A stretch of 64,000 nt of DNA, taken from positions 372,001 through 436,000 of the forward strand of contig NZ_AUMT01000003.1 of assembly GCF_000430825.1 (NCBI RefSeq), given 5' to 3'. Positions 2,702 to 50,278 of this stretch are shown in pieces. Both the position numbers and the translations under genes were made by a program. Source of the DNA: Chryseobacterium daeguense DSM 19388 (GTDB lineage: Bacteria; Bacteroidota; Bacteroidia; Flavobacteriales; Weeksellaceae). The notes beneath the pieces are model-generated. The model was not told where the DNA came from, made no database searches, and was given only the letters and a program-made list of their open reading frames with translations. Position 1 is the first letter of the stretch, and each line of letters starts with the position of its first letter.

Positions 2702-3172
2702 ATGAGAAAATTTTTAATCGGAATTTTATTTATCGGAGCTACATTAGGTGTTAAGGCTCAGTACGGATCATTAAATGAAATCCTTACCAGACTTGAAGAA
2801 AGAAAAGGCGTAAATCAAAATCTGGAAGCGGTAAACATTGATAATAAGAAGTTTATTTTTATTAAAGATGAAGCAGATCACACAGAAAGGGACTTCATTG
2901 TGATCAAAGGTAAAAAAGCTACTTATGTAGAGGTTTTCGATGACAAAGCAACCGGAGAAAGTAGCTCGAATGTTTTCACAGGTGATATTATCAGAAAGAA
3001 AAACATCGTTTCTTTAAGAGCAGATATGCTTGAAAATAAGAAAGTTCCTATCCCGGTCACAAAAACTTTACTGCTTACAAAACAGGACAATATCCTGTAC
3101 CTGATCGATGTAAATACCAAAGCCAGATGGATCGACGAAGAATCTTTTTCTAAGGCTAAAAACAAAAAGTAA
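2702..3172 (+). CDS. Small secreted protein in the tyrosine-degradation cluster
   Basis: 156 residues. A clear signal peptide (MRKFLIGILFIGATLGVKA, cleavage before QYGS) predicts export to the periplasm or beyond. The mature part is hydrophilic and mostly beta-like, with no Cys and no recognised catalytic motif. It sits 14 bp after the hppD terminator and 89 bp before fahA. The placement suggests co-expression with tyrosine catabolism but gives no function. No family recognised. Confidence 0.75.
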   Translation: MRKFLIGILFIGATLGVKAQYGSLNEILTRLEERKGVNQNLEAVNIDNKKFIFIKDEADHTERDFIVIKGKKATYVEVFDDKATGESSSNVFTGDIIRKKNIVSLRADMLENKKVPIPVTKTLLLTKQDNILYLIDVNTKARWIDEESFSKAKNKK

Positions 3173-32793: not shown

Positions 32794-32823
32794 AATGTCT
32801 GCAATTTTTTGCAGGCATTTTTT
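32794..32823 (+). terminator. Terminator after the DUF3108 gene
   Basis: AATGTCTGCAA (32794-32804) pairs with TTGCAGGCATT (32809-32819), one G-T pair, then T-rich. Confidence 0.8.
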
Positions 32824-32889
32824 ATGTGGTATGTAATAAATTTTTCATCTCAATTGTCATCATTATATAACACTAAGAGACAATCAACC

Positions 32890-35322
32890 ATGAAAGCCAA
32901 AATACTGATCATCTGTATACTATTGTTTTCACATTCCCTATATTCCCAAAAAAAGGAAGAAAATAATATTATCAGGAAGAAGATTCTGATCACAAAAACC
33001 TTATCATCCCCAAAAATAGACGGAATCCTTGATGATTCAGAATGGCAAAACGCTCCTGTAGCTACCAATTTTATTGAAAGAAACCCCAATAACGGCCGTC
33101 CTCAGGCAGATTCCATAAAAACAGAGGTGAAAATTTTATATGATGATACCGGAATTTATTTCGGAGCTCAGATGTATGATCCCACGCCGGCGAAAATTGC
33201 AAAAGAACTCACCGAAAGAGATGGTATCAGCAATGATGATTTTTTCGGAGTGGCTTTAAACGGATATAACGATAAACAGCAAAGCCTCGAATTTGTAGTT
33301 ACCGCGGCCGGCGTACAGTTTGATGCAAAATTAACAACGGACGGCGAAGACGATACCTGGAACTCAATATGGTACAGCGGTGCAAAAATCAATGAAAAAG
33401 GCTGGTCCGTGGAAATAAAAATTCCTTATTCCGAATTGAGATTTCCAAAAAGCAATGTACAGGAATGGGGAATGAATATGTTCCGGAAGATCCAGAGAAT
33501 CAAAGTATCATACGACTGGAATTTTGTAGACAATGCCAAGAATTCCTACACTCTTTTTGACGGTGTTTTACAAGGTATCGAAAATATAAAACCTCCTACC
33601 CGATTGTCTTTCACTCCTTATTTTTCAACTTATATTAATAGCTATGACGGGAAAACAACCGCTAATGTGAATGGTGGAATGGACGTAAAATATGGTATTA
33701 ATGACGCTTTCACCTTCGATATGACGCTTATCCCGGATTTCGGGCAGGCTAATTTTGACAATTCAATTTTAAATTTAAGTCCGTTTGAGCAGCAATTCTC
33801 CGAGCAAAGAACATTTTTCACCGAAGGAACCGAGCTGTTCAGCAAAGGCGGCATGTTTTATTCAAGAAGAGTAGGCGGCGAGCCTACGCTTTATCCCACA
33901 ATTAGCGCTAACGAAGAAGTAACGGAATATCCTTCAAAAGTAAAATTATTTAACGCTTTTAAAATTTCCGGACGAACGAAAAAGGGGCTTGGAATTGGGT
34001 TTTTCAACGGTGTTACCCAGAAAATGGAAGCCACTATCATCAATCATGAAACAGGAGAAATCAGAAGAGAAGTTGTAGAACCGTGGGCCAACTATAATGT
34101 GCTGGTTTTTGACCAGAGATTCAACGGAAATTCTTCTGTATCATTAGTAAATACAAATGTAACAAGGGACGGAGCGTTTCGTGATGCCAATGCTACAGGA
34201 ATTCTCTGGGACATTATCAATAAAAAAAATATATACAAAACCTTCGGAAGCCTGAAAGGAAGCTGGGTGATGAATGGTGAAACAAAATTCGGGACGCGAG
34301 CAGAAGCCGGTTTTGAAAAAATTGCTGGGAAACACCGCTTTTCCATCAACGGAAATGCCACTACAAAAAACTGGGATATTAATGATGTAGGATTTTCTAC
34401 AAAGACCAATTTTGCCAATTACAATGCCTGGTACGGCTATAGAATTCTGCAGCCTACAAAAAACTTCAATAATATTTACCTGAATTTTAACCTGAATTAT
34501 TACCACAGATTAGAACCTTTTATTTTCCAGAATTTTGTTTTTAATAACAACAACAGCTTTACTGATAAAAACTTCCGTGTTTTTGGCGGCGGGATTGAAT
34601 TTACACCTCTTGGCCAAAATGATATTTTTGAACCCAGGACTTTCGGGCGGCATCTTAAAGTTCCGGGATATTTTGATTCGTGGATCTGGTTTGAAAGCGA
34701 CAGCCGAAAAAAGCTGCAGTATAATTTCACCATAGATTATTATGCTTTTGATGAAAAAGGAAGAAACCAGGTTTTCACAGAATTTGGGCTAAGATACAGG
34801 TTCTCAGATAAATTTAATATAAACTGGAATTTTAATCCAAGTTTCAGCAATAATGAAACAGGTTTTGCCGGCAAAAATGACCCTGATATTTTCATTGGAC
34901 GAAGACAAAGAAACACTTACGAAAATGCTTTAACCTCAAAATATACATTTAACGAGAAAACCTCCCTGACACTTACTTTCAGACATTATTTTTCTGATGT
35001 TACGTACAAACAGTTTTATACCTTAAATCAGGATGGAAGCCTTACAAATACTGATAATTTCAGCAATAATCTCAACGGAACTTATAATGCCTGGAATGTA
35101 GATTTACGGTTTTCTTGGTGGTTTGCCCCGGGAAGCCAGCTTACACTGCTCTACAGGAATGCAACATCCAATTATCTTGAATTTTCAAGGCTGAATGTTA
35201 CTAAAAACTATGATATGCTTTTCAGCGAACCCACGGTAAATAACTTTTCCTTAAAACTAACCTATTTTCTGGATTATAACAGGGTAAAATCTTGGGCTAA
35301 AAAAAGAAAAATGAAAGGCTAA
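32890..35322 (+). CDS. DUF5916 outer-membrane protein with CBM9-like N-terminus
   Basis: 810 residues. Signal peptide MKAKILIICILLFSHSLYS. Residues about 30-210 look like a family-9 carbohydrate-binding module (SSPKIDGILDDSEWQNA ... VEIKIPYSELRFP). Then DUF5916: DFGQANFDNSILNLSPFEQQFSEQRTFF and TEGTELFSKGGMFYSRRVG. The last 450 residues alternate aromatic and polar residues as in an outer-membrane beta barrel. Likely surface glycan binding or processing. The start at 32890 puts the signal peptide first; the 27 upstream in-frame codons overlap the preceding terminator. Confidence 0.85.
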   Translation: MKAKILIICILLFSHSLYSQKKEENNIIRKKILITKTLSSPKIDGILDDSEWQNAPVATNFIERNPNNGRPQADSIKTEVKILYDDTGIYFGAQMYDPTPAKIAKELTERDGISNDDFFGVALNGYNDKQQSLEFVVTAAGVQFDAKLTTDGEDDTWNSIWYSGAKINEKGWSVEIKIPYSELRFPKSNVQEWGMNMFRKIQRIKVSYDWNFVDNAKNSYTLFDGVLQGIENIKPPTRLSFTPYFSTYINSYDGKTTANVNGGMDVKYGINDAFTFDMTLIPDFGQANFDNSILNLSPFEQQFSEQRTFFTEGTELFSKGGMFYSRRVGGEPTLYPTISANEEVTEYPSKVKLFNAFKISGRTKKGLGIGFFNGVTQKMEATIINHETGEIRREVVEPWANYNVLVFDQRFNGNSSVSLVNTNVTRDGAFRDANATGILWDIINKKNIYKTFGSLKGSWVMNGETKFGTRAEAGFEKIAGKHRFSINGNATTKNWDINDVGFSTKTNFANYNAWYGYRILQPTKNFNNIYLNFNLNYYHRLEPFIFQNFVFNNNNSFTDKNFRVFGGGIEFTPLGQNDIFEPRTFGRHLKVPGYFDSWIWFESDSRKKLQYNFTIDYYAFDEKGRNQVFTEFGLRYRFSDKFNINWNFNPSFSNNETGFAGKNDPDIFIGRRQRNTYENALTSKYTFNEKTSLTLTFRHYFSDVTYKQFYTLNQDGSLTNTDNFSNNLNGTYNAWNVDLRFSWWFAPGSQLTLLYRNATSNYLEFSRLNVTKNYDMLFSEPTVNNFSLKLTYFLDYNRVKSWAKKRKMKG

Positions 35323-35402
35323 AAATACTAACAACGTAGTAAATTTTTCAATATCATCTCGTTTTTAATTACGTTTTGTTTCTTAGGTCAGTAATTAAAA
35401 AC

Positions 35403-35538
35403 AAAAAACCTCCGGAATTCCGGAGGTTTGATTTTCTTCTTTTTTATCATTTGTGTGTGTTCGTTCTTTGGTTCTTTCTCATCATTTGTGTTTTATGAGA
35501 ATCAAAGATCATTATAGTAATTTTTTTCCTTCTTTTTG
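35403..35538 (-). ncRNA. Tandem small-RNA unit A (promoter, ATGATG hairpin, mini-ORF, terminator)
   Basis: Minus strand. The -7 box TACATTTG (35552-35545) is followed by TATCAAC, shared with unit B. The predicted transcript folds TTCTCAT / ATGAGAA around a loop with ACACAAATG, flanked by TCTTTG / CAAAGA, and ends in the terminator AAACCTCCGGAATTCCGGAGGTTT (35406-35429) with a T-run. An ATG at 35485 opens a 12-codon frame, MMRKNQRTNTHK, stopping at 35447, before the terminator. No downstream gene lies on this strand nearby, so it is not an attenuator of a neighbour. Type (sRNA or peptide mRNA) is undecided. Confidence 0.5.
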
Positions 35539-35652
35539 TTGATACAAATGTACTAACATCATCATATACAATCCTCATAAATGTTTTAGATATATATCGC
35601 CAAGACAGTAGATTTTTATCTACAAATCAATAGTTACAATAAAAAATCATTT

Positions 35653-35782
35653 AAAAAAAAGAACCTCCGAAAAAAATCCGGAGGTTCTTTTATGCGATCT
35701 TTGATTCTTTCTCATCATTTGTGCTTTAGAGAAATCAAAGACCTATGATCTTTCTTAAATAATTTTTTCTTATCTCTTATGT
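35653..35782 (-). ncRNA. Tandem small-RNA unit B (diverged copy of A)
   Basis: Minus strand. The -7 box TATCTTTG (35795-35788) is followed by TATCAAC. The stem TCTTTGATT...AATCAAAGA encloses GCACAAATGATGAGA, and the terminator AAGAACCTCCG/CGGAGGTTCTT (35659-35669, 35679-35689) ends in eight T on this strand. The frame from ATG 35718 starts MMRKNQRSHKR and reads through the terminator to a stop at 35647. Units A and B share promoter, hairpin, peptide start and terminator sequence but differ in between, as expected for a duplication under structural constraint. They lie directly downstream of the LuxR-type regulator gene. Confidence 0.5.
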
Positions 35783-35872
35783 TGATACAAAGATAGAAAC
35801 AGAGAGGGATATAAGCATTATAAATGATGTAGATATATGTCGTATCTGTTATAGATATAATTCTACAAATGA

Positions 35873-43699: not shown

Positions 43700-45364
43700 A
43701 TGCATCAGAGAATTTTAGCCAGCTTCTTTATTTTTTTATTCTGTGTTTCTTTCGCACAGACTTATGAGGTTCAATACATTAGCTCCTACAACGGAAAAGT
43801 ACAGACGGAACAGTCGCCCACTTTAGTATGGGTAAATGAAAAGGAAAATTTTATTCTAAATAATAAAATAAGAGAACAAAAAGCAGATTTTCCATTTGAA
43901 ATAACAAAAATTGAAAAACCTTCCAACACAGTAGTTTCTTATGCTTTTTTGAAGCCCGGAGAAATTATTTCGACTTCTGATACTGAATCCGTAGGAAAAC
44001 AAAACTTCGAGCTTACTAATGAAACCAAAAAAATCTTAGGATATACTTGCAAAAAGGCGGTTACTAAAATCAATTCTAATACTATTGAAGTATGGTTTAC
44101 CACTGATATGAAAATTCAGGGAGGCCCTTCCGTAATAGGACAAAATCTGGGTTTCGTACTGGAGATCGAAAGAAATAAAAACTCTGTAATTACCGCCAAT
44201 TCAATTAAAAAAGTAAAGAAAACAGAGATCGGCAATCTGCTTAAAGGTTCTATTAATTCTACAGATCAGTTAGGCTACAAAGATCTTTTATGGAAAAGCA
44301 GATTTACAACCCTGAAAGTTTTTGAAAACGAAACCATTAATTTTTCGGATGAATCCAAATCAGATGAAAACGTAAAAAGATTTGCTAACGGAACGATTAT
44401 CCTTAAAAAAATTAAGTTCCCGAAAATTTCTCAAGGCGAAAATATTTTTGTTGAATTAAAGCAGCAGTCCAATGGTGATGCTTATGACAGAACCGGAACC
44501 GTTTTCTTTATTCCACAAGATAAATCACAGTCTTTTTTCAATGGATTGGAAAGTGGCGCAAAAACGCTTCCCGCTTATGACAACGGAAACGGAAAGCAAT
44601 ATTACGGTGTAGCTTCCACAGAAAATTACAATCCTGCTATTGAGATGATGAGATTTTTTACGGCGTTCGGGATCAATAAATTTAATCATATTCAGCTAAA
44701 AGATAAAAGCTGGCAGACCATAAACCCTTACCGGCAGGACATTACGGAGCTAAAGCCTTCACTGTCTGAAAAAGAGCTATGGGTTGGAACTTTTATCGGT
44801 AATTATGATAAAGGAGGACATAAGGTGAGTCTTGAGATCACCATCCACAAAAGCGACCAGACCATCAATAAAAACAATACCGTAATTCCTTTATTTAATA
44901 CTTTGAATATTATGGAAATGGCCGGACAGGACTATTCCACGATGTTTAACCTGGATAAAGGTCTGCAGGTAGAATTTACCTTAAAAAAAGATTTAAAAAA
45001 TGCGCAGCTGAGGTACATTACCACGGGCCACGGCGGCTGGGAAAACGGCGATGAGTTCGTTCCTAAAGCCAACTCTATTTTCCTTGACGGCAAAATGGCA
45101 TTCTCTTTTGTACCGTGGAGATCAGATTGCGGCTCTTACCGTCTTTACAACCCTGCTTCAGGAAATTTCGCAGACGGACTTTCATCATCAGATTTAAGCA
45201 GATCAAACTGGTGCCCGGGAACGGTTACCAACCCCAACTTCATCTCTCTTGGAGATTTAAAAGCCGGAAAGCACACTATTCAGGTAAAAATTCCGCAAGG
45301 CCCTACAGAAGGAACAAGCTTCAGCTCTTGGAATGTTTCGGGAGTATTACTGGGTTCTGAATAA
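43700..45364 (+). CDS. Peptide-N-glycosidase F, type II (PNGF-II-like)
   Basis: 554 residues with a signal peptide (MHQRILASFFIFLFCVSFA, then QTYEV). Residues about 20-170 form a GLPGLI-like N-terminal domain (ILGYTCKKAVTKINSNTIEVWFT), the accessory bowl domain of PNGF-II. Two PNGase F jelly rolls follow: the first around DAYDRTGTVFFIP, the second with RYITTGHGGWENGDEFVPK, SDCGSYRLYN and SRSNWCPGTV, corresponding to the acidic and Trp residues around the active site of E. meningoseptica PNGase F. It cleaves the asparagine-glycan bond of N-glycoproteins outside the cell. Single gene with its own promoter. Confidence 0.88.
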   Translation: MHQRILASFFIFLFCVSFAQTYEVQYISSYNGKVQTEQSPTLVWVNEKENFILNNKIREQKADFPFEITKIEKPSNTVVSYAFLKPGEIISTSDTESVGKQNFELTNETKKILGYTCKKAVTKINSNTIEVWFTTDMKIQGGPSVIGQNLGFVLEIERNKNSVITANSIKKVKKTEIGNLLKGSINSTDQLGYKDLLWKSRFTTLKVFENETINFSDESKSDENVKRFANGTIILKKIKFPKISQGENIFVELKQQSNGDAYDRTGTVFFIPQDKSQSFFNGLESGAKTLPAYDNGNGKQYYGVASTENYNPAIEMMRFFTAFGINKFNHIQLKDKSWQTINPYRQDITELKPSLSEKELWVGTFIGNYDKGGHKVSLEITIHKSDQTINKNNTVIPLFNTLNIMEMAGQDYSTMFNLDKGLQVEFTLKKDLKNAQLRYITTGHGGWENGDEFVPKANSIFLDGKMAFSFVPWRSDCGSYRLYNPASGNFADGLSSSDLSRSNWCPGTVTNPNFISLGDLKAGKHTIQVKIPQGPTEGTSFSSWNVSGVLLGSE

Positions 45365-45397
45365 AAAAACCTTCTCGCAAACTGAATTGCAAGAAGG
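45363..45397 (-). terminator. Hairpin with T-run on the minus strand
   Basis: CCTTCTCGCAA (45370-45380) and TTGCAAGAAGG (45387-45397, one mismatch), with seven A at 45363-45369 that read as a T-run on the minus strand. It also follows the PNGF-II stop directly. No minus-strand gene leads into it, so either it works poorly for the plus strand or an unseen minus-strand RNA ends here. Confidence 0.5.
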
Positions 45398-45408
45398 TAA
45401 AAACACAA

Positions 45409-45450
45409 ATGATGAAAAAAAATTATTTCGAGCCACAAAGTAAAGGCTAA
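45409..45450 (+). other. Mini-ORF sharing the AAAACACAAATGATGA leader
   Basis: The 16-mer at 45399-45414 is identical to one in small-RNA unit A (minus strand, around 35.48 kb). From ATG 45409 it would encode MMKKNYFEPQSKG. No promoter or following terminator was identified. The rest of 45451-45630 is AT-rich with no feature recognised. Confidence 0.25.
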
Positions 45451-49978: not shown

Positions 49979-50278
49979 GTCATTGCAAGGTACGAAGCAA
50001 TCTTTTTGTAATACGGCTTTAAGAGCTTTATGAAATAATTTCATCATGAGACTTCCAACTTCCATTTTTCAGGAGCTTTTTCCTGCTTTCCGCTACAATC
50101 TTTTTTTCAAAAAGGATTTTCACTACAATCAGGGCTAAGGATTTCGGGAGTGGTGGCTTCGAGAACCTCAGCCACCATTGAGATGGCAGCCTTTTTCATT
50201 AATGTTTGACTTAATATAATCTTTGATTTTTGAAGCTGGGAATCTTAGATAATGAGATCGCTTCGTACTTCACAGTGA
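49979..50278. repeat. 300-bp composite of palindromic repeats
   Basis: Outer arms GTCATTGCAAGGTACGAAGC (49979-49998, continuing AATCT) and its near reverse complement ending at 50278 (AGATCGCTTCGTACTTCACA, 50253-50272) bracket other repeats. One at about 50070-50140 has the paired stretches CCGCTACAATC and CACTACAATC around a TTTTTTTC/AAAAAGG palindrome. A hairpin GGTGGCT...AGCCACC lies at about 50152-50176. No ORF is convincing. It occupies most of the 450-bp gap between the MFS and pirin genes. Confidence 0.5.

Follow-up and report, generated by a model that had tools for sequence, protein, structure and literature searches.

The described systems closest to the element reported here either join a kinase and a response regulator to small RNAs, as in Gac/Rsm (GacS-GacA with RsmX/Y/Z) and BarA-UvrY/CsrB, where GacA is a LuxR-family regulator, or set one RNA against another, as in the enterobacterial sponges ChiX-chbBC and SroC, in which an RNA with one or a few sites reportedly pairs with the seed of a small RNA (sRNA) and titrates it. 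Excerpts of two accounts of Gac/Rsm describe a palindrome upstream, a motif that recurs unpaired within the small RNAs, variation in copy number, and rsmX genes in tandem (PMC2375449, PMC7911923). In Bacteroides, according to excerpts of the FopS report, the FopS sRNAs bind near start codons and block those of susC, and their antagonist is the protein RbpB, the word 'sponge' being absent from the main text as excerpted (PMC11697453). Here we describe two tandem array units on the minus strand of a 64,000-nucleotide (nt) stretch of Chryseobacterium daeguense DSM 19388 (contig NZ_AUMT01000003.1, positions 372,001 to 436,000; hereafter the window), together with a second RNA family (family 2) to which they are complementary. 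The units probably constitute a regulator-driven, multi-site sponge for FopS-like paralogous sRNAs, and with that a base-pairing counterpart of Gac/Rsm.

The array locus resembles Gac/Rsm in having a kinase and a response regulator, multi-site RNAs, and tandem copies and, by sequence and spacing, the palindromic upstream sequence and adjacent LuxR-family (GerE-domain) regulator that go with CsrB/RsmZ-type RNAs. It differs in that its repeat is ACACAAAUGAUGA, not GGA, and, because this repeat is complementary to a putative sRNA seed, the system would have an RNA ligand, unlike Gac/Rsm. Further differences are that the array RNA genes adjoin the regulator gene and that the host belongs to another phylum; neither multiple unpaired GGA motifs nor an Rfam match to CsrB/Rsm was found in the array. 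The array system would be Gac/Rsm-like in working but is not a member. Unlike the enterobacterial sponges, it has a gene devoted to the purpose, with 1-11 sites, and a two-component system of its own to which this gene is linked. Family 2 shares with FopS the several paralogous copies per genome, the common seed, and the terminator, and appears FopS-like in build; Bacteroides belongs to a different family of Bacteroidota from the Chryseobacterium host. FopS was not among the Rfam release 15 matches of six loci at E ≤ 1, its presence in that release being unchecked. Another flavobacterial structured RNA, Flavo-1 (RF01705), occurs in the same window (50075-50140, minus strand; 67.3 bits against a gathering score of 42) and matched neither the array nor any of the family-2 loci searched.

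Tandem units and their complementary partners

The minus-strand region 35403-35867 comprises two diverged copies of one transcription unit, as an earlier note made from the letters of the window had recognized, arranged as direct repeats 233-243 nt apart with blocks of 47 nt at 85% and 34 nt at 79% identity. Each copy has, in order, a palindrome, a second box, a -7 box, TATCAAC, a hairpin with ACACAAATGATGA, and a terminator with a CCTCCG stem. The promoter starts that the note had listed (TATCTTTG-TATCAAC and TACATTTG-TATCAAC) were found as described, and both units contain the hairpin region holding ACAAATGATGAGAAAGAA, the frame beginning MMRKNQR, and the terminator; to these we add the operators, a further copy of the motif within unit A, the kinase-regulator pair upstream, and a complementary RNA at 45.4 kb. 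The units sit immediately 3' of the histidine kinase and LuxR-type response regulator genes, on the same strand. No minus-strand gene lies downstream, the next gene (32809-35322) being on the plus strand, and therefore, as the note had argued, there is nothing for the units to attenuate. Directly behind the array, at 35361-35402, GTTTTTAATTACTGACCTAAGAAACAAAACGTAATTAAAAAC makes up an inverted repeat of 12 nt, which recurs, its loop nearly constant, behind the arrays of six relatives (L010, L013, L014, L017, L022, and L039).

The complement of the array motif, UUUUUUUUCAUCAUUUGUGUUUU, lies just before the terminator of family 2. Against three family-2 RNAs encoded in the same genome, array RNAs A and B have 23 and 24 uninterrupted pairs (2-3 of them G-U), an extended complementarity to a putative sRNA seed such as an sRNA sponge would have. 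When both strands of the window, divided into 894 pieces of 143 nt, were compared with one of these RNAs, the two array pieces reached 24 and 23 pairs, the antisense of the family-2 locus reached 33, and the next best piece reached 18. Contiguous pairs were counted instead of using duplexfold energies, because the latter allowed unrealistic loops and shuffled RNAs came out similar in several of six pairs. The complementarity is certain, and the RNAs would probably pair in the cell. The 19-mer CACAAATGATGAGAAAGAA, searched in the window at up to 3 mismatches, had four matches, three of them in the array and the fourth at 45.4 kb, where shuffles predict 0.06; ACACAAATGATGA occurred 14 times in the C. 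daeguense genome and its reversed control once.

Six exact 20-mer copies of the seed, TTTTTTTTCATCATTTGTGTTTT or the same with one T less, are present in non-coding DNA of the C. daeguense genome, directly before a terminator hairpin. Two further exact copies lie inside a long open reading frame (ORF) on C15 of this genome, not beside terminators, in seed-bearing stretches ~46 kb apart (G000:C15 26704-27350 and 73195-73841). At up to one mismatch, the 21-mer TTTTTTCATCATTTGTGTTTT was found in all 60 genomes of the genus, with 3-11 matches each, a few of which are antisense to arrays or inside coding sequence, and the reversed control had none in any of the 60. A terminator-like hairpin followed 74 of the 80 seed copies fetched, compared with 142 of 800 random positions under the same lax rule; in the other six, a hairpin was seen by eye in two and none in four. 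TAnnTTTG was located at most 75 nt upstream in 24 of the 80 copies and in 46 of the 800 random positions. Family 2 falls into several unlinked classes that have the seed alone in common and differ in their terminators and 5' parts; in one of these classes the 5' hairpin body, CCTTGAATGAGGGAACAAGTCAAGG, is nearly constant. The family-2 copies are putative expressed sRNAs. In several loci, two family-2 RNAs of different classes are near each other on one strand, either ~290-335 nt (L085, L086, L089, and L090) or ~1.2-1.4 kb apart (L095, L096, and L109).

Across the bacterial family, a 19-mer of the seed was present in 253 of 296 genomes. In a sample of the order outside the family, 5 of 247 genomes had a single one-mismatch match, and the control likewise had matches in 5 genomes.

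Conservation of the array behind its regulator

To sample loci independently of the motif, we searched an alignment of the regulator alone against named genomes and kept the best 80 of 137 relatives, scanning each from the regulator to the next long ORF or for 900 nt at up to 2 mismatches. The motif was found behind the regulator in 65 of these 80 loci, at 1-11 sites per locus that were sometimes spread over several tandem units, and totaled 158 sense and 3 antisense sites against a mean of 2.45 per dinucleotide-shuffle set. Among the units first collected there were 1-3 copies of the motif per unit. The highest number, 11 sites within ~580 nt behind a single operator, was in L187, and other loci had 6 and 5, while six operator-promoter units stood in tandem in G043 (L039). 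The conserved stretch of the array sites is ~18 nt, from A at -3 to A at +14, similar in extent to the seed, and the changes within sites were mostly A>G (61, of 91 changes at A), followed by G>A (17), C>T (12), and T>C (4).

BLAST of the region against the 60 genomes of the genus recovered 30 loci, 18 of which (that of C. daeguense included) hold the second box, the -7 box, and the motif. There were BLAST matches in 55 of the 60 genomes, many consisting of the common CCTCCG terminator alone, and these were not counted as evidence for the family. A scan for the R1 family had matches in at least 40 of the 296 genomes, an undercount given the strict filters and the 11 candidates scored per genome. 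The N-terminal 330 amino acids (aa) of the kinase, its sensor half, had matches in 186 of the 296; this N-terminal sensor region had no Pfam match.

Operator and promoter

Each unit has a palindromic two-box operator at a fixed distance from the promoter, consisting of the palindrome TGTAGAT-N4-ATCTACA, or a near form of it, and the second box CGAYATATATCTA. The Bacteroidota -7 box consensus is TAnnTTTG, and start sites were placed by the rule that this box spans -12 to -5, both taken from an excerpted source (PMC9723704); transcription would thus begin as given in Table 1. A box and a -7 box could be scored in 72 of the 80 regulator-found loci, the other 8 giving nothing. The better-matching box started 46/47 nt upstream of the -7 box in 45 of the 72, 68/69 nt upstream in 24, and elsewhere in 3, and the two main classes fit two boxes 22 bp, or two helical turns, apart, both of which are present in the window units. 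From its position, conservation, and family, the neighboring regulator presumably binds these boxes.

In the C. daeguense genome, the palindrome was found at up to 2 mismatches in 8 places, 2 of which are these units, and the reversed control in 3. No second array was recognized at the other 6 places, viewed by eye only and without a motif scan. In Epilithonimonas hungarica, the locus without a motif in the scanned stretch (L292) is followed ~3.5 kb further on by an array with its own operator (L241), which suggests that the array is independent of the regulator's transcript. In G008, a pair of array units, operator boxes included, is still found close to pheS (L040), although the kinase match of that genome lies ~690 kb away, beside a regulator of the other clade.

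Hairpin and reading frame

The earlier note had taken the units for stand-alone RNAs or peptide mRNAs under selection, with a hairpin that should recur at homologous loci. The hairpin does recur: among the 42 matches (40 of them distinct) that a model of it had in 54 sources, double changes occur in 8 of the 9 stem pairs, with 36 double-change cells compared with 10.3 in shuffles, and pairing in 92.3% of stem cells against 81.5% in shuffles and at most 59.2% in slid controls. This alignment was fitted to a 9-bp stem given by hand and to the model alignment, and hence favors that structure. RNAalifold predicted no structure from a raw MAFFT alignment, owing to displacement of the 3' stem in some rows. 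The motif had a mean unpaired probability of 0.73 in unit A and 0.92 in unit B, and in the minimum-energy fold of unit A part of it is paired into the upper stem. Under a permissive Rfam threshold, 39 matches fell at the array region, all below the gathering score, the foremost being BSnc120 (35.2 bits of the 114 needed, E = 1.4e-6) and Phe_leader (36.5 bits of 55, E = 2.2e-4), both covering terminator hairpins. Six related loci searched against Rfam at E up to 1 gave three sub-threshold miRNA/sRNA matches, all in one locus.

The RNA part of that claim was supported, since promoter, operator spacing, hairpin covariation, and terminators are kept in relatives and no minus-strand gene lies downstream. 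The peptide part was not. Over the 42 aligned relatives (in two of which the frame was read from another start, an alternative ATG in L268 and ATGATAA in L040:5910), frame length ranges from 3 to 62 codons and is at most 6 codons in 11, and the frame begins MMRKNQ in 10 and MMRKNQR in 6. What is kept in ATGATGA is a repeated motif matching a different RNA family; it does not open a conserved peptide.

Table 1. Features of the array locus and of the family-2 copy in the window. Start sites are predicted.
Feature	Positions	Strand	Basis
Histidine kinase, 573 aa	36514-38235	-	ORF; Pfam PF00512 (HisKA), PF02518 (HATPase_c)
LuxR/NarL-type response regulator, 214 aa	35873-36517	-	ORF; Pfam PF00072 (receiver), PF00196 (LuxR/GerE); motif RNA behind regulator in relatives
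Unit B two-box operator: TGTAGAATTATATCTATA (35850-35867) and CGACATATATCTA (35830-35842)	35830-35867	-	Sequence; spacing in relatives
Unit B -7 box TATCTTTGTA	35786-35795	-	Sequence; predicted start site ~35783
Unit B array RNA (predicted): hairpin 35696-35743, motif site 35705-35724, terminator 35653-35690	35653-35783	-	Sequence parts
Unit A two-box operator: TGTAGATAAAAATCTACT (35607-35624) and CGATATATATCTA (35587-35599)	35587-35624	-	Sequence
Unit A -7 box TACATTTGTA	35543-35552	-	Sequence; predicted start site ~35540
Unit A array RNA (predicted): hairpin 35465-35508, terminator 35403-35428	35403-35540	-	Sequence parts
Unit A motif site 1 (in hairpin)	35472-35490	-	Pattern match
Unit A motif site 2 (after hairpin)	35437-35455	-	Pattern match
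Family-2 RNA, window copy (predicted): promoter-like TACTTTGT (45435-45442), seed 45400-45422, terminator 45363-45398	45363-45430	-	Sequence; predicted start

A sister branch of the regulator

A membrane glycosyltransferase-2 gene is next downstream of the regulator in loci read from g4, g5, g10, g22, and part of g26, identified by PF00535 in the two proteins scanned and by a sequence signature in all 11. A similar palindrome and promoter, viewed by eye (L249-L259), directly precede this gene and are weakest in g22. In a tree of 98 regulators, the 11 rows with the glycosyltransferase were placed on one side of a supported branch (100/99), and the other side contained 72 rows with the motif and 15 without, where a row with the motif has any site at up to 2 mismatches within 900 nt, a few of which may be chance (L243/L309, in which a gene follows). 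One genome, G124 (g5), carries both kinds of regulator. Behind related regulators in several genera of the family, a similar palindrome-promoter is thus followed either by an enzyme gene or by an RNA, the two having been swapped. The seed is almost absent from g10 (one match in six genomes) and g22 (one in two), both of which showed the glycosyltransferase type of regulator alone, in line with the sponge reading.

Mechanism and candidate targets

In the mechanism that we propose, the kinase would sense a signal and phosphorylate the adjoining response regulator, which in this form would bind the two palindromic boxes and turn on transcription of the array RNAs. Each of these would present at least one copy of AAAACACAAAUGAUGAAAA, one of them in or at the hairpin loop. 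These sites are similar to the region around a translation start (AAACACAA-AUG), and their complement is UUUUUUUUCAUCAUUUGUGUUUU, the putative seed shared by family 2. The array RNA would then pair with family-2 RNAs and titrate them away from their own targets, most likely mRNAs with motif-like start codons, the repression of which would be lifted upon the signal. Because the sites look like a translation start, the simplest target rule would be that family-2 RNAs block start codons of that form.

The 12-mer AAACACAAATGA is present at 20 places in the C. daeguense genome (reversed control, 0), 7 of which belong to family 2 or to the arrays. It contains the start of two long ORFs, namely a 151-aa gene, preceded by a gene judged by eye to be ssb-like, and a TPR gene of 461 aa whose leader has two sites. 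Both may serve as leads, the regulon itself being a guess. In L047 (G000:C7:98000-102000), the leader of the TPR gene has motif copies at 990-1125, one of them at the start codon, and ~1.9 kb downstream a further motif-bearing stretch without a long ORF (2940-3170) is a possible target or second decoy.

Weighing the sponge against other readings

Several observations weigh against the sponge reading. Only the two genes above have start codons with the full 12-mer in the C. daeguense genome, and several family-2 copies look like 3' untranslated regions (UTRs) rather than free sRNAs. There was no motif in the scanned stretch of 15 of the 80 regulator loci. Site variation was not significantly biased toward changes that keep G-U pairing (p = 0.085), and no covariation between array and seed was established, chiefly because there is so little variation in the seed. 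The evidence for the hairpin comes from matches to a model of a single clade; those RNAs that belong to a second clade, whose kinase is ~53% identical, look different and have fewer good sites, with none in 2 (L233 and L234) of the 13 second-clade loci examined. As for co-occurrence, the seed was matched without a kinase match in 13 genomes of the same genus, in six of the seven g11 genomes, and in many g26 genomes, and there are 2 seed matches in the sole g4 genome whose regulator is of the glycosyltransferase type. The g12 genomes have the kinase, the regulator, and the seed, but in L243 another gene follows the regulator and no array was seen, nor was one seen behind the regulator in L247, the second g12 locus read. 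From this pattern, the array seems to depend on the seed family more than the seed family depends on the array.

The complementarity is symmetrical, and the array RNAs could themselves be the active riboregulators, with the seed-terminator elements as their targets at the 3' ends of mRNAs or small transcripts whose stability or termination would be changed. Some seed copies do lie in apparent 3' UTRs, for example, the class with the CCGGGCGG-type terminator. However, a single operator with as many as 11 sites behind it fits titration better than it fits targeting, and the promoter-like boxes close upstream of many seed copies, together with the class whose 5' body is almost unchanged, also speak against this reading, which we consider unlikely. 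A little less likely again is sequestration of an RNA-binding protein that recognizes CACAAAUGAUGA, as CsrB/RsmZ sequester CsrA/RsmA. The LuxR-type regulator, the palindromic boxes, the repeated motif partly in loops, and the tandem copies would all suit it, as they do Gac/Rsm in the excerpted account (PMC2375449), but it leaves unexplained 23-24 nt of complementarity to a genus-wide multi-copy RNA family, and a conserved stretch of ~18 nt is, in our judgment, long for a protein footprint.

That the units are peptide mRNAs or leader peptides (MMRKNQR...) is suggested by the frame start shared by both window copies. We rejected this reading, which we hold to be very improbable, as the frame is not conserved across the 42 relatives, in length or in its first residues, and no minus-strand gene follows. 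Least probable of all, to the point of being negligible, are chance or non-functional repeats of AT-rich DNA, to which the low G+C content of the region might point, and which are contradicted by the shuffle and reversed-pattern controls, the strand asymmetry, the covariation, and the fixed operator spacing.

Implications

If the sponge reading holds, the array may be an all-RNA counterpart of Gac/Rsm in Bacteroidota, in which tandem or long decoys driven by a two-component system, with up to 11 start-codon-like sites, would capture any of the paralogous sRNAs, so that one signal would reset an entire sRNA regulon, and in which the sponge and a direct enzyme target would have traded places in evolution; we give this wider picture somewhat better than even chances. 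The literature searched, in which few subscription papers were covered, held no description of either RNA family, and both of these mutually complementary families appear new as far as that literature reaches. It likewise contained no characterized sRNA network for the host group (Chryseobacterium, Epilithonimonas, Elizabethkingia, Kaistella, and their kin), for which our hypothesis would link a sensor kinase to global sRNA control. Finally, as the decoy sites appear to imitate the start-codon region, they would make start-site targeting testable in bacteria without Shine-Dalgarno signals.
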